DNA from: Sulfurospirillum diekertiae
GTDB taxonomy: Bacteria > Campylobacterota > Campylobacteria > Campylobacterales > Sulfurospirillaceae
Length of the DNA: 64,000 nt
Direction of reading: 5' to 3'
NCBI RefSeq assembly: GCF_002162315.1
Contig: NZ_CP021416.1
Coordinates: forward strand, 1,810,207 to 1,874,206
Below are positions 52,060 through 61,499 of this stretch, in pieces. Numbering within the stretch: the first letter of the stretch is position 1; each line of letters begins with the position of its first letter. The notes beneath the pieces are model-generated. The model was given only the letters and a program-made list of their open reading frames with translations. It was not told the DNA's origin and did not search any database. Position numbers and translations under genes: made by a program.

Positions 52060-53958
52060 ATGAAAACCTATAATTTTTGTTATGAAACAGGTTCTCTGCC
52101 AAGTATTATAGATTTTTCATTATTTGTCAATGAAAAAAATGTTTTAGTACAAATATTTTGTGGCCACGGTAAAGAAGTGTTAAAGTATACCAGTGACGTT
52201 ATCCTAAGTCATCTTCCAAACGCTATTTGTATAGGAACGACCACGGATGGAGAGATATACGGCGAGTCCATCACAACATTCAGAACCATTATCTCTATTA
52301 GTATTTTTGAGCATACCTTTATCAAGACAGCCTATGCACAAAATGATGATTCGTTTCAATGCGGTATGAAATTAGCATCGGATTTGATAACACCCAATAC
52401 AAAATTACTGATTCTTTTTTCTGACGGTACTCATATGAATGCCGAAGAGTTTTTGCAAGGTGTTGAAACCTTCGATTCAACCGTTCCTGTTTGTGGTGGT
52501 ATGGCAGGAGACAATGGAAAATTTGAACAAACCTATATTTCATCTCAACATACGCTCATAGGGGAAGGTGTGGTGGGAGTCTCTTTAAATTCTGATATTC
52601 TTCAAGTCGCAACGAATTATAAATTTGATTGGAAACCCATCGGACTAACACATATACTTACCAAGGTTCAAAATAATAGAGTTTACATGATCGATGATAT
52701 GAGAGCGACTGATTTTTATGATAAATACCTCGGCGGTAATTTTTCACAAACAGAATTTCCCCTTATCCTTGAAAAAAATAGCGTTACGATGGTAAGAGCT
52801 GTCATTGCAAAACATGAAGATGGAAGCCTTAGTTACAGTGGAAATCTCAATGAAGGAGATCAAGTCAGAATTGGTTTTGGCGATGCTGAATCTTTGATGC
52901 AAGACCCTATAGAATCCTTAGAAAATTTACAATCGATCAACACAGAAACATTTTTTATTTTCTCCTGTATGGCACGACGAAGATTTATGCCATTTCTTAT
53001 CAAACTGGGGATTGGATCTTTTGCACGAACGGCCACCACTTCAGGATTTTACACCTACTCTGAATTTTATCATCATGATGGTCACAATAAACTCCTGAAT
53101 CAAACACTGACCGTTGTTGCTTTAAGCGAATCAGAAGAAAGTCCTCTTCCTGCTAAACATACAAATACGGATATGAATAAAAAAGATACTTCTTATTTTA
53201 GAACTTTTAAAACGATTGAATCATTGACCCACTTAATTGAACAAAGTGCTCGTGATTATGAAGAGCAGTCCAAACGTTTAGAAAAGCAGATGAATTATTC
53301 TGAAAATCTTTTGGCATCCCATAGGCAATTTTTGCGTTATACCGTCCACGAAATGAATTCACCACTCAGTGTTATTATGGGCAATATCGAACTGCACGAG
53401 ATGGAATTTGGGAAAAGTGTTTACTTGGAAAATATCGAAGTTGCCGCTAAAAGTATTTTTTCAATGTATGATGATTTGAGTTATTTGGTTAAAAAAGACC
53501 ATATTCACTATATGAAGCAAAGGATTGATTTAGTTGACTATGTCCGCAGTCGCATTGATTTTTTTGCTCAAGTTGCAGACAAAGCAAAATCAATGTTTCT
53601 CTTTGAATCCAATTTGAGTCAGATATATATCTTTTTAAATGAGACAAAATTACAACGTATCATCGATAACAACCTCACCAATGCTATTAAATATACCTTT
53701 GAAAATGAACAGATTATTGTTTCATTGCATCAAGAGCATGATAATTGTCATTTTTTCATTGCATCACACTCACGAAAAATCCAAGAACCTGAAAAAATTT
53801 TTGAAGAATACTACAGGGAAGAACAATCACAAGAAGGCTTTGGATTGGGGCTCAATCTCGTCAGAAGAATTTGTAAGGAAGAAAATGTAAAAATAACACT
53901 GCATTCAAGTGAAAATATAACATCCTTTTCATATCAATTTAAAGTGCTAAACACATGA
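52060..53958 (+). CDS. FIST-domain sensor histidine kinase
   Basis: A 632-aa kinase with no membrane segment. The N-terminal half is a FIST plus FIST_C sensor (about residues 25-370: CIGTTTDGEIYGE, VCGGMAGDNGKF, SCMARRRFM), a family thought to bind small ligands such as amino acids. A coiled coil leads to HisKA with His430 in RYTVHEMNSPLSVIMGN, and HATPase with NNLTNAIKYTFE and GFGLGLNLVRRI. Its 3' end overlaps the regulator gene by 4 bases. It is divergent from the aldehyde oxidoreductase operon, its likely target. Confidence 0.9.
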   Translation: MKTYNFCYETGSLPSIIDFSLFVNEKNVLVQIFCGHGKEVLKYTSDVILSHLPNAICIGTTTDGEIYGESITTFRTIISISIFEHTFIKTAYAQNDDSFQCGMKLASDLITPNTKLLILFSDGTHMNAEEFLQGVETFDSTVPVCGGMAGDNGKFEQTYISSQHTLIGEGVVGVSLNSDILQVATNYKFDWKPIGLTHILTKVQNNRVYMIDDMRATDFYDKYLGGNFSQTEFPLILEKNSVTMVRAVIAKHEDGSLSYSGNLNEGDQVRIGFGDAESLMQDPIESLENLQSINTETFFIFSCMARRRFMPFLIKLGIGSFARTATTSGFYTYSEFYHHDGHNKLLNQTLTVVALSESEESPLPAKHTNTDMNKKDTSYFRTFKTIESLTHLIEQSARDYEEQSKRLEKQMNYSENLLASHRQFLRYTVHEMNSPLSVIMGNIELHEMEFGKSVYLENIEVAAKSIFSMYDDLSYLVKKDHIHYMKQRIDLVDYVRSRIDFFAQVADKAKSMFLFESNLSQIYIFLNETKLQRIIDNNLTNAIKYTFENEQIIVSLHQEHDNCHFFIASHSRKIQEPEKIFEEYYREEQSQEGFGLGLNLVRRICKEENVKITLHSSENITSFSYQFKVLNT

Positions 53959-54623
53959 AAATTTTACTCTTAGAAGATGATATTCTCTTAAATGAATCTA
54001 TCACAAAGTACCTTACAACCATTGGTCATGTCATCACTTCCGTAAGAGATGGCAATATCTGTCTTCAAATTTTAGAAAATGAAAAATTTGACTTGCTTGT
54101 TTTTGATATCAACGTACCCAATGTTGATGGATTAACAATCTTAGAAACACTGCATGCACACAAAAAAATAATGCCTGTTATTTTTATCTCAACGCTCATT
54201 GACATCGAAGATATATCACGAGCATTTGAACTTGGGTGTTACGATTATTTGAAAAAACCCTTTCATTTAAAAGAACTCAATCTAAGAATTGATAGAATTT
54301 CCAAAACCGCTAAAAAAGATATGCATCACAAAAGACTTTCCGCTTCTTACAGTTTTAATTGTGACACGATGACACTTTATTTTCACGAAGAACCACAAGT
54401 TCTATCCAAACGACAACTTCAAATTATCGAATTTTTAACTCGGAACCGTGGATTTGTTTGTGGCTTTGATATGTTTCGAGAAAATGTGTGGAATGATTTT
54501 GATATGGATGTCGATGATGCCACCATACGAACAGAAATCAACCGCCTAAAAAATAATTTGAAAGAAGATTTTATCATCAATATTAGAGGTATTGGTTACA
54601 TGATCAAAGTTCCTCCAGCGTAA
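53955..54623 (+). CDS. OmpR-family response regulator
   Basis: A 222-aa two-domain regulator. The receiver has LLLEDDILLNESI, phosphoacceptor in LLVFDINVPNVDG and lysine in DYLKKPFHL; the winged-helix DNA-binding domain (about 130-222) has LSKRQLQIIEFLTRN, VDDATIRTEINRLKNNL and IRGIGYMIK. Partner of the FIST kinase. OmpR-type proteins bind direct repeats, and repeats exist in the shared divergent region upstream of the mop operon. Confidence 0.93.
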   Translation: MKILLLEDDILLNESITKYLTTIGHVITSVRDGNICLQILENEKFDLLVFDINVPNVDGLTILETLHAHKKIMPVIFISTLIDIEDISRAFELGCYDYLKKPFHLKELNLRIDRISKTAKKDMHHKRLSASYSFNCDTMTLYFHEEPQVLSKRQLQIIEFLTRNRGFVCGFDMFRENVWNDFDMDVDDATIRTEINRLKNNLKEDFIINIRGIGYMIKVPPA

Positions 54624-54634
54624 AACATTCACCA

Positions 54635-54659
54635 AAGGGATTTACATGTAAAGCCTTTG
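54635..54659. terminator. Terminator-like hairpin centred on TTTACATGTAAA
   Basis: Imperfect palindrome with CAAAGG and CCTTTG outer arms around the exact dodecamer at 54641-54652, between the convergent regulator and MscS genes. Same construction as the 32-base palindrome at 39618-39649, with mismatches. Confidence 0.55.
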
Positions 54660-54678
54660 TCTCATAAAAAATCCAAAA

Positions 54679-55740
54679 TTACTCTGTGTTTTTATGAATA
54701 AAAAGTGTTTGAGTCGGGTAAGCAAATTCGATCCCTTCTTTGTCAAAGGCTTCAAATATCGCAAGATTGATTGACTGTTGAATATCCATATAAGTATTAT
54801 AATCCCCACCATTAACGAAGTAAACAAATTCAAACTTCAAACTTGAATCTCCATACGTTGAAAAATGTCCCCGATCATACGTTGTATTATCGATCATTGT
54901 AATGATCTCTTTGACGATGGTCGTTATTTTTTGAGCAACTCTGGCGCAATCTGATACGTCACACTCAATGCAAAAAACGACCCTTCGACTTTCCATTCTT
55001 TTATAATTATGCACACGTGAATTGGTCAAATCGGTATTAGAAAAAACCAGTTGTTCGCCACTGAGTGCGCGCATGCGTGTTGTTTTGATGCCGATGTGTT
55101 CGACAATACCTGACTTATCACCCACCATAATAAAATCACCCGTTTCAAAAGGTTTATCAAAAAAGATGACAAAATAACTAAAAAGATCCCCCAGCACTGC
55201 TTGAGCAGCTAAGGCAACGGCAATACCACCAATCCCAAGACCTGCGACGACGGCGGTTATTTTTACTCCAAGGTTATCCAAAAGAAACATGATGGCAATA
55301 ATCCAAATCGCAAAACTCACCAGCCCGCTAATTCCTTTGAGCTGATCTTTCTTTTGAATCGAATCATCGGACTTTTGTAAATAGCGTTGCAAACTATAAT
55401 GCGCGATGGCAATCACAATACGCACGGAAAACATCGTTAATAAAACGATCATCATCACATCAAGGATATGCTCTATTTTCGAGGACAATGTCAGGAATTT
55501 GAGTGACACATAAAAGATGGAAAAGTAAAAAATAGGAATAAAATAGCTTTCTATGACACGAATAAGTAAACCACTCACTTGTGTTGGAATCGCATTGATC
55601 CATATTTTAAGCTTTGCCAAAATGTAATGTTTCAAAATAAAAACAGACAACGTACCTAAAGTATAACCCCCTAATGCGAGGCAATAGTCCAAAAGGGTGT
55701 TTCCCATAAAGGTATAGTCTAAAAATGAATTGATCGTCAT
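54679..55740 (-). CDS. MscS-family mechanosensitive channel
   Basis: A 353-aa channel with about four to five helices. The pore helix and following beta domain are visible in VVAGLGIGGIAVALAAQAVLGDLFSYFVIFFDKPFETGDFI. The cytoplasmic domain includes FSNTDLTNSRVHNYKR and ends FAYPTQTLFI, as in MscS. It releases solutes on hypo-osmotic shock. ATG 55740 is taken as start; the frame is open further upstream but that part overlaps the preceding gene. It follows a glucosylglycerol-phosphate synthase-like gene after one base, a logical osmoadaptation pair. Confidence 0.88.
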   Translation of the reverse strand: MTINSFLDYTFMGNTLLDYCLALGGYTLGTLSVFILKHYILAKLKIWINAIPTQVSGLLIRVIESYFIPIFYFSIFYVSLKFLTLSSKIEHILDVMMIVLLTMFSVRIVIAIAHYSLQRYLQKSDDSIQKKDQLKGISGLVSFAIWIIAIMFLLDNLGVKITAVVAGLGIGGIAVALAAQAVLGDLFSYFVIFFDKPFETGDFIMVGDKSGIVEHIGIKTTRMRALSGEQLVFSNTDLTNSRVHNYKRMESRRVVFCIECDVSDCARVAQKITTIVKEIITMIDNTTYDRGHFSTYGDSSLKFEFVYFVNGGDYNTYMDIQQSINLAIFEAFDKEGIEFAYPTQTLFIHKNTE

Positions 55741-55741
55741 T

Positions 55742-58003
55742 TTATTTGCTTTTGTGCATGACTGCGTCCATAAAGCCCTCTCCCCACGTATGCACATCGT
55801 TACTTCGCACAATCGCATTCATCCTTGACATTCGATACGCTCGATCATCTTCGCCTAATGTGAGAGCAAGATAGAGTGTCTCTTCCATACTTTTAGCATC
55901 ATACGGATTAGTGAGCAGTGCGCCATGCAGTTCCACCGCAGCCCCTGCAAATTCGGAGAGGACGAGTACGCCTTTGCCACCAAGATTGCCTTGTGTTGCG
56001 ACATACTCTTTGGCAACTAAATTCAGTCCATCACGAAGGGGAGTGATCCACGCCACATCTGCCACACCATAATACGCGATGACATCTTCATACGCAAGAG
56101 AGCGGTAAAAGTAACGCACAGGCGTCCAATCCAGTGTCGAAAAACGACCATTGATGCGTCCAACCATCGTATCAACATCGACTCGCAGGGCTTCGTACAC
56201 TTCCATACCTGGAGCAGCAGGCGTTACAAAGTTGAGTAACACCAAGTTTCCGATAAACTCAGGATGATTTTCAAGGAGTGTTTCAAAGGCTAAGAGTTTT
56301 TCGAGTGAGCCTTTGACATAATCAAGTCTTTCTAAAGAGAGAATGGCACGTTTGCCTACAAATTCATTGCGAATACTCTCGATTTTATGGCGAACAGCTA
56401 ATTTTTTGAGCAAAAGGTCTATTTGGGCACAGTCAATGCCAACAGGATGCGCCCCAAGGTGAACTTCTTTTCCTCCCACACGAATGCTATTGGTCACTCT
56501 ATCGACCCCAAGCGCACAGCCATAGGTCATAAAGCGTGGTGCGCATGGTGTTTGAGAGAGTATCGTGGTAGGTGCAAAACTTTGCACAACATCCACAAAA
56601 TTTTCCACATAACGAGGTATATGAAAGCCTATATAATCACATTGCAACAAACTTCCGATGATCTCACGACGCCACGGGATAATGTTGAAAATAGTAGCAG
56701 GCGGAAAGGTGGTATGGTGAAAAAAAGCAATTTTAAGATCGGGTCTTAGCATACGCAAAAAGGCAGGCACCATCCATAGATTATAATCATGAATCCAAAC
56801 AAGTGCCCCTTTGGCGGCTTCTAGCGCCGTTTGTTTAGCAAAAATCTCGTTGATTTCAAGGTAATGTTCCCAATGATCTTGCTTAAACTCCACCTTATCG
56901 GGAAATGAAAAAATGATGGGCCAAAACGCTTCTTTGGAAAATTTCTTGTAAAACAGATCAACATCTTTGGCTAAAAGAGGAATGCGCGCGGCTTGTAAAT
57001 GGGGGTATTTGGTAACATCAACATCCACTTGTACCTCAAAATTTGCAGGCGTTCTAGAAGCTTGCAATGACCAAGCGACCCATGAACCTTTGATGCCTGT
57101 CGTGAAAAAATTCAACAATGTGGGAATGATGCCATTGGGGCTTTTTGGTTTATGTCGTTTGCCATTTGCCATTTCATCAAACGGCAAGCGATGATAGACC
57201 ATCACCAAATCTGATTTTCCTGCTTTATGAATGAGAGAAGGCTTTTCACTTTTTAAAAATTCATAATGCGCAAGCCCTTCGATAATACCTGCACACCCCT
57301 CCCCAGAAGAGAGATAAACCTCTTTGCAATCACGCACCGCATGAATTAAAGCTGGCTCAGAACCACCCACAACAATACTCGAAAAACCCTCTTTAAACAT
57401 CGAAAGATCATTGAGTGTATCACCCGCGGTTACAATTTGTTCAGGAGCAAATTCAAGTTGTGCACAGAGCTTCCGCAAGGTTGCACCTTTCCCCGTTCCT
57501 TTGGGCAAAATATCGAGATACTTATGTGCTGAAAAAAGAAGCTCACAACCCAAGGCTTCCACAACAGCTCTTAGACCATCATCGATCAATCCTTCGCGCA
57601 CAAAAAACGAACAACGTCGCTCTTGGGGTACACTTTGGCGCTCCAAATACCCAAAAGGTTCAAGAGCGTCAAGAACCTGTTGTGTGCCTGGCCATACATC
57701 GGAAATACTCTGTTGCAAGGGAAAAACAGGCAGCAACGTGTCGCCATGCACGACCGTAGCGCCCACATCCGCGATAATATAATCAGGCCTTGGAACCATT
57801 GGATCGTTTAAAAGTGGCAAGATGGACTCTAAGCCTCGACCTGACACAAAAATAAGCTTAGCATGTGGAATGTTACCACTGAAAAGTTCACGTAAATGAC
57901 GACGGGCAGGCAATGGACTTGCGAGTAGCGTACCATCTAAATCGGTGGCAAGAACCACACTTGAGTTTGAGTCTAATGAAGAAGAAAGTAATTTTTTAAG
58001 CAT
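55742..58003 (-). CDS. Bifunctional glucosylglycerol-phosphate synthase/phosphatase-like protein (GT20 plus HAD)
   Basis: A 753-aa fusion. The N-terminal HAD phosphatase (1-250) has VLATDLDGTLLASP, FVSGRG and TAGDTLNDLSMF. The C-terminal GT20 domain has WIHDYNLWMVPAFLR, FFHHTTFPP, LSLERLDYVKGS and PLRDGLNLVAKEYVA. Phosphatase-first order and this length match the GgpPS proteins reported from some Pseudomonas and Azotobacter; a trehalose-phosphate synthase is the alternative. It would make the compatible solute glucosylglycerol from ADP-glucose and glycerol 3-phosphate. A strong GGAGG precedes the ATG. By eye it is richer in G+C than its neighbours, so it may be acquired. Confidence 0.8.
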   Translation of the reverse strand: MLKKLLSSSLDSNSSVVLATDLDGTLLASPLPARRHLRELFSGNIPHAKLIFVSGRGLESILPLLNDPMVPRPDYIIADVGATVVHGDTLLPVFPLQQSISDVWPGTQQVLDALEPFGYLERQSVPQERRCSFFVREGLIDDGLRAVVEALGCELLFSAHKYLDILPKGTGKGATLRKLCAQLEFAPEQIVTAGDTLNDLSMFKEGFSSIVVGGSEPALIHAVRDCKEVYLSSGEGCAGIIEGLAHYEFLKSEKPSLIHKAGKSDLVMVYHRLPFDEMANGKRHKPKSPNGIIPTLLNFFTTGIKGSWVAWSLQASRTPANFEVQVDVDVTKYPHLQAARIPLLAKDVDLFYKKFSKEAFWPIIFSFPDKVEFKQDHWEHYLEINEIFAKQTALEAAKGALVWIHDYNLWMVPAFLRMLRPDLKIAFFHHTTFPPATIFNIIPWRREIIGSLLQCDYIGFHIPRYVENFVDVVQSFAPTTILSQTPCAPRFMTYGCALGVDRVTNSIRVGGKEVHLGAHPVGIDCAQIDLLLKKLAVRHKIESIRNEFVGKRAILSLERLDYVKGSLEKLLAFETLLENHPEFIGNLVLLNFVTPAAPGMEVYEALRVDVDTMVGRINGRFSTLDWTPVRYFYRSLAYEDVIAYYGVADVAWITPLRDGLNLVAKEYVATQGNLGGKGVLVLSEFAGAAVELHGALLTNPYDAKSMEETLYLALTLGEDDRAYRMSRMNAIVRSNDVHTWGEGFMDAVMHKSK

Positions 58004-58129
58004 TGGTGCCTCCAGTGTATTTTGTCGAACAAAACCCTTTGGCTGGGCAACATTTATAAGAGAATTCCTCGTAAAAGTGAATTAAGAATCATGTAGAGTG
58101 TTGTATATCAATTTATTGTAGCTGAAACT

Positions 58130-58245
58130 TTCGTATCGGAGCTTAGGGGAAGTGGGGTAAATTCTTGTGGTGAAGCTTTACATGTAAAGATTTTATTGAT
58201 TGTAAAAGTTATAAGTTTAGTTCTGATTTCTTTTTATACACCAAT
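58130..58245. repeat. Imperfect inverted repeat centred on TTTACATGTAAA, unit 1
   Basis: The dodecamer at 58177-58188 is flanked by diverged arms (ATCGGAGCTTA on the left; AGTTTAGTTCTGAT on the right). A related structure lies at 58735-58825, on the other side of the cytosine deaminase gene, and the right arms of the two units are alignable. The spacer 58004-58233 holds no gene. Confidence 0.45.
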
Positions 58246-58904: not shown

Positions 58905-61499
58905 TTAGAAAAAATCAGCGTTTTTGTCTACCCATTTAAAATACTCAATAATATCTGTAATCTCTTGGTCATTCATATTTTGGTTTGGCATTTTAAGGTT
59001 AAAAAATTCAATGAGCTTTTTCATATAAGGCTCTTGAAATTTACTTTCAGGATTTTTAACATATTCTACAATCCATTGCTCAGCATTTTTATGGCGTTTA
59101 AGCACACCCGTTAAATCTGGACCGGAACTAACTCTGCCAATGACATGGCATCCAGAACAACCGCCTTCTTTAAAAGCCCCCTCTCCTCTCTTAACAGCTT
59201 CAGATTTTGGAGAAGCCAACACACTTGCTAACAAATCTTTAGCCCTAATAGCCGAATCAGCCGTTTTGATGATGTATTGCCATGCCATATTTTCAAACAG
59301 AATAGCATTTTCCAAATTATTTTCATTGTACGCTTTGAAAGCTTTCTCTTTCTCTGGAAGAATCTTCGCATATTGGTCTTTAGCATCTTCTACCAAGTTA
59401 TTAACAGTTGGATACTTCGAAGCTTGATTCTCTTTTAAAAATGTAAAAAGATCATCAACAACGTTTTTAGATGCTTCATTATTGGCTGTAATTTTTTTAT
59501 ACTCTTCTTGAAGCTCTGAAGGAGAGAGATTTTTGATTTTTGATTTCTGACTCCAGTCATAATCTTTTTTCGGATCTTTAACCAAAAAATATCCCATCAT
59601 TTCCAGATGTAATGCCGAACAAAATTCCGTGCAATAGTAAGGGAAAACACCTTCGATATCTGCGACAAAATCGATCTGTGCCGTTTCCCCTGGTTCGACG
59701 GAGACATGAATATCGTGATGATCAATCGTAAAACCGTGCGTTTCGTCTTCTGCACGTTCGACATTCGTAATATACATCGTTACTTTGTCCCCTTTATTGA
59801 CGGTAATATGCTCTGGATTGATATGTGAACGCACCATCGTCGCATAAATATAAACATGATCTCCTTTTCGAACAATACGTTCTTCTCCCGCAAGCGTTTT
59901 ACCTATATGCGGCTGACCCGTTTTCGGGTTTGTTCCCATAGGATATCTGACTTCGGGGTGTATTTTACTTGCGCGAATGGATGCAGCCTGATGAGGCTCG
60001 CCTAAAGGTATCGGTAAGTCGTATAACAGTTCCATCTTTTTTTCGCCAATATCAATGAGTTGATTATTTTGTGGATGCAATGGTCCGACAGGTAAAAATC
60101 TATCAATAGCTAATTTATTCAAAGCGATAAGATATTTCCCTTGAGGATCGGCAGATTTACCTTCCATCGCTTCAAGATGGCCAACATTATAGTGAATATT
60201 AACTCTGTCAAGTAGCTTCAAATTTTTATAGTCCCATTTTACAATTTGAGAATCTACATACAAAGAGCTGTAAACAATCCCATCCTCTTTTCCAAAGCTA
60301 TTATGTAGATGTCCAAGTCCCAATTCAAGTTGACCATGCAATGATTTTTTTAAATCGAGGATTGGTATACCATAAGAATCCTTGCCGATAAACTCTTTAT
60401 TCTCTATTTGTTTAATGATTTTTTTAAAGTCATAGACAGAGGCATGTGTATCTAGCTTTCCAGAAACGATAATATATTGACCGTCAGGATTCACGTCAAC
60501 TCCATGCGGAGATTTATTTTCCGGAATCAAAAAAAGTGCATTATTTTTAACTGCCACATCAATAGGAATTACTTTGTGATTATTAATGATTTTTACATTT
60601 TTTGCATCTTTTGCAAGCTCAGCTAATTTTTTCCAATTGTAAACATGTAAATAATCTGTATCGCTACGACTGCATCCCGCTTCGAAGGGAGGGAGCCCTT
60701 TTTCAATTCCTCCCGTATAAAGTTCGGAATTAAAAGAATTAGTAAATCCCCATCCATCTGAGATACCTTTTCCAGCATCTGTCAAATCTTGCATATAAGG
60801 AGGAAGTTCTAACGTAAAAGATTCTTCTGGCAAAATTCTTCCTTTTTCTTTGTCAAATTTCCAAAAAGTTACTCCCCCTCTATAAGTATCTTGGTAAGCT
60901 TCCATAGGATAATAATCGTTTGTTAAAGGTGCAGCATATTGACATGATTCAAGAATATAATCAGTATTTGGCGTCACAAAAGCGCCGCCATGATCTGATT
61001 TAAAAAGAGGGTTCACAACGATTTGAGAAGTTTCAAAATATTTTAAATTAATAACGGCAATTCTAGCATTCGCTTTATCATTAATAAAAAGGTATTTCCC
61101 ATCATAGATACCATTCGTTTCAGAAAGTGCAGGATGATGCGTGTCTCCCCAATTAATTTCTCGACCTCTTACATTGCCTTCTCTTAAAATTTCTTTTGAA
61201 TCTGTATCAAAACCATATCCTTGCCACGGTTCAGGGGTAAAAACGCTGATATATTTCAATATCCGCATAGAGGGGACACCGTAAACTAATACTTGCCCTG
61301 ATTGTCCGCCACTGGCAAACACATAATATTCATCATGTTTACCGCTAGGTTGATAGACTTTTAATGCAGCAATAGCGTCTTGCTCAGTGAGTCCGCGCTG
61401 TTGCATAATATCTTGAAATTTTGATTGAGCATACATGGATTGCACAGAAAACGTCAATCCTAGTATTATGCTATAGATAATCAATAAATATTTTTTCAT
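58905..61499 (-). CDS. nosZ: Nitrous oxide reductase with C-terminal cytochrome c domain (cNosZ, clade II)
   Basis: Reduces N2O to N2 in the periplasm. 864 aa, full length. It starts with a Sec-type signal peptide (KYLLIIYSIILGLTFSVQSMYA, no twin arginine), typical of clade II. CuZ histidine regions: DTHHPALSETNG, DHGGAFVTPN, SPHGVDVNPDG and GLGHLHNSFGKEDG. CuA site: YCTEFCSALHLEMMGY. A monoheme cytochrome c domain (about 765-864) has CSGCH and the axial-ligand region MPNQNM, as in Wolinella cNosZ. AGGAG precedes the ATG. Upstream on the same strand are a broken cytochrome c gene and a NosB-like gene; no nosDFYL genes lie downstream. Confidence 0.95.
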   Translation of the reverse strand: MKKYLLIIYSIILGLTFSVQSMYAQSKFQDIMQQRGLTEQDAIAALKVYQPSGKHDEYYVFASGGQSGQVLVYGVPSMRILKYISVFTPEPWQGYGFDTDSKEILREGNVRGREINWGDTHHPALSETNGIYDGKYLFINDKANARIAVINLKYFETSQIVVNPLFKSDHGGAFVTPNTDYILESCQYAAPLTNDYYPMEAYQDTYRGGVTFWKFDKEKGRILPEESFTLELPPYMQDLTDAGKGISDGWGFTNSFNSELYTGGIEKGLPPFEAGCSRSDTDYLHVYNWKKLAELAKDAKNVKIINNHKVIPIDVAVKNNALFLIPENKSPHGVDVNPDGQYIIVSGKLDTHASVYDFKKIIKQIENKEFIGKDSYGIPILDLKKSLHGQLELGLGHLHNSFGKEDGIVYSSLYVDSQIVKWDYKNLKLLDRVNIHYNVGHLEAMEGKSADPQGKYLIALNKLAIDRFLPVGPLHPQNNQLIDIGEKKMELLYDLPIPLGEPHQAASIRASKIHPEVRYPMGTNPKTGQPHIGKTLAGEERIVRKGDHVYIYATMVRSHINPEHITVNKGDKVTMYITNVERAEDETHGFTIDHHDIHVSVEPGETAQIDFVADIEGVFPYYCTEFCSALHLEMMGYFLVKDPKKDYDWSQKSKIKNLSPSELQEEYKKITANNEASKNVVDDLFTFLKENQASKYPTVNNLVEDAKDQYAKILPEKEKAFKAYNENNLENAILFENMAWQYIIKTADSAIRAKDLLASVLASPKSEAVKRGEGAFKEGGCSGCHVIGRVSSGPDLTGVLKRHKNAEQWIVEYVKNPESKFQEPYMKKLIEFFNLKMPNQNMNDQEITDIIEYFKWVDKNADFF

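Follow-up and report, generated by a model that had tools for sequence, protein, structure and literature searches.

Fused enzymes in which a glucosylglycerol-phosphate phosphatase and the corresponding synthase form one protein (GgpPS) have been described in Stenotrophomonas rhizophila, Pseudomonas mendocina, Azotobacter vinelandii, and Marinobacter adhaerens (PMC10873239) and are also treated in PMC6753628. All four are single polypeptides with the phosphatase first and the GT20 synthase second. Marinobacter loci pair ggpPS with a phosphorylase (GGP) gene (PMC10873239). Cyanobacteria encode GgpS and GgpP in separate genes (PMC6753628, PMC6004087); judging from the family (TIGR02398), the fused enzymes would share their two-step chemistry. 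Here we analyzed a stretch of 64,000 nucleotides, hereafter the window, from the single 2.88-Mb contig of the Sulfurospirillum diekertiae genome (NZ_CP021416.1, positions 1,810,207 to 1,874,206). It contains a predicted ggpPS gene (55742..58003, minus strand, 753 amino acids) followed by mscS, a gene for a channel of the MscS superfamily (54679..55740, minus strand, 353 amino acids). The domain order is that of the described enzymes, and the fusion is not new, because such enzymes are already known from other bacteria. What differs is the partner, a channel gene here and a phosphorylase gene in Marinobacter. The enzyme is of a familiar type and its setting is less so: a synthase-channel pair that recurs, and not a new kind of system. 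We lean towards reading the pair as a unit that makes and releases glucosylglycerol, a neutral compatible solute; the pair would have come from outside Campylobacterota and would later have been lost or have decayed in many species.

Identity of the fused enzyme

An earlier note, made from the letters of the window, had read the gene as a phosphatase-first HAD-GT20 fusion with glucosylglycerol-phosphate rather than trehalose-phosphate chemistry, and both parts of that reading were supported. Pfam places an S6PP-type HAD domain at residues 16-249 (57257..57958, minus strand; PF05116, 169.7 bits) and a GT20 domain at residues 266-747 (55763..57208, minus strand; PF00982, 425.8 bits). The phosphatase domain contains DLDGT, SGR, K, and GDTLND, which we take to be the HAD catalytic motifs. 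The protein passes the curated NCBIfam model for glucosylglycerol-phosphate synthase (TIGR02398, 649.3 bits against a cut-off of 569) and falls below the OtsA cut-offs (TIGR02400, 409.5 against 564.85 bits; NF007513, 261.8 against 759 bits). The GT20 tree was built from 46 rows with OtsA as outgroup; 38 of the rows are fused enzymes, and 36 of those come from a survey of relatives that retained the 80 best loci of the 475 stretches found. The Sulfurospirillum enzymes are monophyletic in this tree (100/100) and group with the main Burkholderiales GgpPS clade (97/98), with the OtsA proteins of E. coli and Rahnella lying outside. The phylogeny hence sides with GgpPS and not with OtsA, in a set of rows that holds no cyanobacterial GgpS.

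The site residues agree. N408, H461, and A597 of GgpPS stand at the columns of E. coli OtsA H132, Q185, and R300, which we assume to be active-site positions, R300 presumably being the acceptor-site arginine that binds glucose-6-phosphate. Among the 38 fused rows, the first column is N throughout, the second is H in 37 and Q in one, and the third is A in 37 and T in one; the Stenotrophomonas and Marinobacter rows have the same residues as Sulfurospirillum. Unfused GgpS proteins of two Rhodobacterales read N, H, N. The columns read H, Q, R in both OtsA proteins and in a Sinorhizobium row, and Q, H, R in a Nocardia row, the latter two being unannotated OtsA-like rows with Arg at the R300 column. 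Because of the Nocardia row, only R300 cleanly separates the four trehalose-type rows.

It could be argued that a trehalose-phosphate synthase/phosphatase has been misread here, since GT20 is common to both activities and the 16 best solved relatives are all named trehalose-phosphate synthases; for that reason the fold alone does not settle the product. However, the OtsA models stay below cut-off, the tree separates the protein from OtsA, all three OtsA residues are replaced (R300 by Ala597), and the HAD domain is of the S6PP type. We rejected this reading and give it almost no weight. Taken together, models, tree, and residues support the prediction that 55742-58003 (minus strand) encodes a glucosylglycerol-phosphate phosphatase/synthase and not a trehalose-phosphate synthase.

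The earlier note had also called such fusions rare outside marine and halotolerant bacteria. As a habitat rule this fails: the nearest named relatives of the enzyme come from Sulfurospirillum itself, and among the 80 best loci, relatives at 62-66% identity occur in Massilia, Rhodoferax, Janthinobacterium, and other Burkholderiales, and these three genera and their kin are largely soil and freshwater organisms. The distribution of the fused gene is patchy, with 17 carriers among 245 genomes of one Burkholderiales family and seven among 24 Sulfurospirillum genomes, the present one counted. One ggpPS (L027/L153) placed among the Burkholderiales rows comes from G115, a genome labelled Patescibacteria that is probably a mixed bin.

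The channel and its pairing with ggpPS

The downstream protein carries PF21088, PF00924, and PF21082, the Pfam domains for TM2/3, the beta domain, and the C-terminal domain of MscS. Its start is listed at 55818 among the open reading frames (ORFs) and is likely at 55740, the Met from which the Sulfurospirillum congener copies align; this ATG lies 1 bp past the ggpPS stop. Canonical MscS models of NCBIfam were missed by a wide gap (at best 88 of 400 bits for NF047602, and 80.5 of 321 for PRK10334), and by sequence the protein is an MscS-superfamily member, not canonical MscS. An AlphaFold model of moderate confidence (18 sequences, mean pLDDT 71.9, pTM 0.40) gave YnaI and MscS as the best Foldseek matches (E about 1e-18 to 1e-17, query TM 0.41-0.50, rmsd 8-11 A). 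The E. coli proteins thus share the MscS domains with the Sulfurospirillum channel, but the best alignments reach only 22-25% identity and E. coli MscS stands apart in the channel tree (100/100, with a long-branch warning at the tree base). In this tree of 63 rows, the four Sulfurospirillum copies group together (100/100) within a proteobacterial, mostly Burkholderiales, subfamily (100/99), away from nine Campylobacterota channels, one of them from the same genome (L093), and from two more channels of that genome. They are not nested within the ggpPS-linked Burkholderiales copies; the row closest to them is an unlinked copy on a long branch, from a metagenome-assembled genome (92/71).

The earlier note had proposed that enzyme and channel belong together, and the genomic surveys support a coupling that would not be accidental. 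These counts are not phylogenetically independent, and both channel profiles (A1 and the one used for the 80 loci) were made from linked copies. With a threshold of at least 300 bits, a subfamily MscS lies near ggpPS in 24 of the 80 loci and in four arrangements: directly downstream (15, and in L028 that copy is broken by a stop), 2.9-4.6 kb downstream (6), upstream (2), and divergent (1). In two further loci, of the Azoarcus type, ggpPS is followed directly by a canonical-type MscS (PRK10334, 229 bits, under the 321 cut-off). Searching 50 of the 80 genomes in full with profile A1 returned the same 24 pairs within 6 kb, together with extra unlinked subfamily copies in several genomes; in 11 the copy of at least 300 bits lies only elsewhere, and some of these contigs are broken such that linkage cannot be judged.

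A sample of 245 genomes from the family of G122 was then compared (up to eight candidates scored per genome, coordinates compared by reading). All 17 genomes with ggpPS, eight of which were already among the 80 loci, have a subfamily channel at E 1e-75 or better, and in 16 of the 17 it lies on the same strand within 5 kb downstream, including all nine outside the 80 loci. Among the 228 genomes without ggpPS, 57 have such a channel (Fisher p 3.5e-10, kinship ignored and with copies from some of these genomes included in A1). Within Sulfurospirillum, a channel more than 80% identical is present in four of the seven genomes with ggpPS, adjacent every time, and in none of the other 17, whose best matches are only about 22-31% identical; the hypergeometric probability, calculated by hand with kinship ignored, is 35/10626 = 0.0033. 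Four of these 17 (G001, G003, G006, and G018) are less than 90% complete.

Other neighbors recur as well: 19 loci have an MFS transporter cluster and 11 a GH13 phosphorylase-like cluster, names that come from the scan of a single member of each. In these neighbor lists, which overlook genes in GC-rich loci, the 11 GH13 loci do not overlap with the 24 loci that have a linked subfamily MscS; this exclusivity fits release replacing breakdown, but it also tracks lineage. In L018, L022, L025, and L038, from Comamonadaceae and relatives, ggpPS is followed by a PfkB kinase, a GH4 glycosidase, a PIG-L-type gene, a SIS-domain gene, and then MscS, and L045 has the same cluster without MscS (PIG-L is not clustered in L018 nor PfkB in L022, and only the L038 proteins were scanned). 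The GH4 enzyme could be a glucosylglycerol-degrading step. On plasmids of Dinoroseobacter and Falsirhodobacter (L138, L144), an unfused GgpS and a HAD phosphatase follow an annotated glycerol-3-phosphate dehydrogenase gene, an arrangement of synthase and precursor supply on a plasmid. G284 has the channel beside ORFs that resemble, by eye, those near Massilia ggpPS, and no ggpPS.

The make-and-release reading and the sugar donor

The proposed working is as follows. At high osmolarity, the GT20 domain would use a nucleotide sugar to glucosylate glycerol-3-phosphate, and dephosphorylation by the fused HAD domain would then yield glucosylglycerol, as family, tree, and site residues suggest. The MscS/YnaI-like channel may be made from the same transcript, given the 1-bp spacing and the recurrent adjacency. 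When osmolarity drops, the channel would open under membrane tension and the accumulated solute would leave, a release that perhaps stands in for a degradation pathway; a query with a Marinobacter-like phosphorylase (GGP) gave no match in this genome, in a search run without a positive control. The salt response, the glucosylglycerol product, and its passage through the channel are what we infer from the genes.

Several observations weigh against this reading. In 43 of the 80 loci, each with at least 1.5 kb of sequence after ggpPS, no linked MscS of these types was found; at L075, which is among the 43, a canonical-type MscS sits 4.2 kb off on the opposite strand. Another 11 loci have less than 1.5 kb of sequence on that side. 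Three congeners with ggpPS (G005, G017, and G022) are without the channel. The subfamily channel also occurs in 57 of the 228 family genomes that have no ggpPS and hence is not used only with glucosylglycerol. Finally, the sugar donor is the weakest link of the proposed mechanism. Synechocystis GgpS is reported to depend on ADP-glucose and not to accept UDP-glucose (PMC6004087), and ADP-glucose is the donor given for the cyanobacterial enzymes (PMC6753628, PMC6004087), whereas no ADP-glucose pyrophosphorylase (GlgC) scored over cut-off in the S. diekertiae genome (best 44.9 of 424.9 bits). The two best nucleotide-sugar enzyme candidates scanned were one GalU, for UDP-glucose, and one CDP-glucose enzyme.

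The missing GlgC and the presence of GalU would suit an enzyme that makes another glucoside on a different acceptor, or one that makes glucosylglycerol from UDP-glucose instead of the cyanobacterial donor. We know of no assayed enzyme from this GgpPS clade. This alternative has to contend with the 649-bit match to a curated glucosylglycerol-phosphate synthase model and with site residues shared with Stenotrophomonas and Marinobacter, genera with described fused glucosylglycerol enzymes (PMC10873239), and we regard it as improbable.

The unlinked channels bear on a second alternative, in which GgpPS makes glucosylglycerol and the channel is a general down-shock valve that travels along without being tuned to the solute. 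The 57 genomes with the channel and no ggpPS agree with it, as does the channel tree, where linked and unlinked subfamily copies are mixed together, and MscS channels have been described as unselective (PMC6753628). However, the linkage recurs in different arrangements and with two MscS types, and among the 24 Sulfurospirillum genomes the channel never occurs without ggpPS. We think a general valve rather unlikely.

Gain, loss, and the edges of the block

The reading of the pair as a make-and-release unit includes an origin outside Campylobacterota, which both trees and the occurrence of the genes support. Among 76 genomes of other genera, no full-length ggpPS match was found, the one partial match covering the phosphatase alone at 28% identity (G044). 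The earlier note had also suspected acquisition, from a high G+C content and an unusually strong ribosome site; the outside origin stands, and these two signs do not show it. With 276 sampled ORFs as the reference, the G+C content of ggpPS is indeed high-normal (44.6%, 92nd percentile; mean 39.1, sd 4.1), but neither its GC3 (38.2%, 67th percentile) nor its codon use (25th percentile) stands out, and the G+C content of mscS is 37.5%. The ribosome-binding site GGAGG is real (58009..58013, minus strand, 5 nt ahead of the ggpPS ATG) and of ordinary strength, a match of at least five bases being present in 78 of the 276 ORFs with first-ATG starts. Composition does not support a recent transfer, and we rejected the ribosome site as a mark of acquisition.

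The pair is convergent with genes for a FIST-domain sensor histidine kinase and an OmpR-type regulator (52060-54623, plus strand), the kinase being matched in all 24 Sulfurospirillum genomes examined. In G005 and G022, ggpPS directly adjoins the response regulator with no channel between; in G004 and G019, it lies within 1.2 kb of the same deaminase gene; in G008, where the deaminase was not found, it sits downstream of the kinase in the interval that it also occupies in G019; and in G017 it is about 36 kb from the kinase. In G009, G012, G013, and G020, which have no ggpPS, the regulator adjoins the deaminase without the pair; the deaminase is 5.4 kb away in G015 and outside the stretch compared in G010, G011, G014, and G021. 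Some copies are broken. The phosphatase domain of the G008 ggpPS is interrupted by stops and a frame change near residue 134, next to an intact channel (L007/L011/L198), and the G022 gene is split and misses residues 379-440 (L008/L010/L204). In G016 and G023, the neighboring kinase is 98% identical and the whole pair is absent: in blastn, similarity stops at 54653 and resumes at 58177, which delimits a block of mscS, ggpPS, and flanks (54654..58176).

The clean absence from these two close relatives, with one copy of a palindrome at the empty site, might suggest that this strain alone gained the pair recently as a mobile cassette. The surroundings that ggpPS shares between genomes argue against it, namely the adjoining response regulator (G005 and G022), the nearby deaminase (G004 and G019), and the common interval downstream of the kinase (G008 and G019), as do the single clade of Sulfurospirillum enzymes and the broken copies in G008 and G022; a recent private gain has, in our view, only a small chance of being right. 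Because neighbors are shared in divergent species and some copies are broken, the gain looks old, with later losses. The pair would have entered Sulfurospirillum early in the genus, probably from a lineage near Burkholderiales, and would since have been lost or have decayed in many of its species.

The palindrome, TTTACATGTAAA, is iterated. One copy lies at the left edge of the block (54641..54652) and one at the right (58177..58188); where G016 and G023 lack the block, a single copy is present. The window has 17 further exact sites. In 464 kb, 132 copies were counted, the other 59 palindromes of the same make-up occurring at most twice. This genome has 792 copies, and each of 23 congeners has 14-791. 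Counts are 0-346 across 13 genomes from the family's other genera and 0-1 in each of 23 genomes from other families of the order. Of the 132 sampled copies, 74 lie between genes, in DNA of which ORF calls mark 85% as coding. Along one 180-kb stretch, 6 of 28 indel block ends fall within 25 bp of the palindrome core, as do 3.1% of random points, and in 9 of the 14 gaps neither end carries the palindrome; the excess is only suggestive, because the intergenic placement of both confounds it. A literature search for the exact strings returned no title on these bacteria. The palindrome could be an uptake, methylation, or recombination sequence, and the pair could have been excised by recombination between two copies, or such copies could have served in its gain. 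A bolder and doubtful proposal is that ggpPS and mscS are a portable make-and-vent cassette, the synthase travelling or being lost with its own valve and the cassette having been assembled more than once with different MscS types; in Sulfurospirillum it would be gained or lost as a block at TTTACATGTAAA copies, a seam for DNA exchange.

On the other side of the pair, 58905-61499 (minus strand) matches a Sec-dependent nitrous-oxide reductase with a C-terminal cytochrome-like stretch (TIGR04246, 858 bits; weak match to TIGR04485). Scans around the pair gave 6 promoter-like sites against 10.8 expected from shuffles, and 6 terminator-like sites against 3.7 (sd 2.2), little excess.

From a biological perspective, the locus places genes for glucosylglycerol synthesis in a Campylobacterota genus for which no paper on this solute was found in the literature searched, most subscription journals lying outside the search. 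With the same coverage, and with papers seen in excerpt, the glucosylglycerol and mechanosensitive-channel literature gave no report of the ggpPS-mscS gene pair; a search on Massilia and glucosylglycerol matched only a study of flower microbiota. On down-shock, compatible solutes are generally considered to leave the cell through unselective channels. A channel that is genetically tied to the synthesis of one solute would make selectivity and dosage directly testable.

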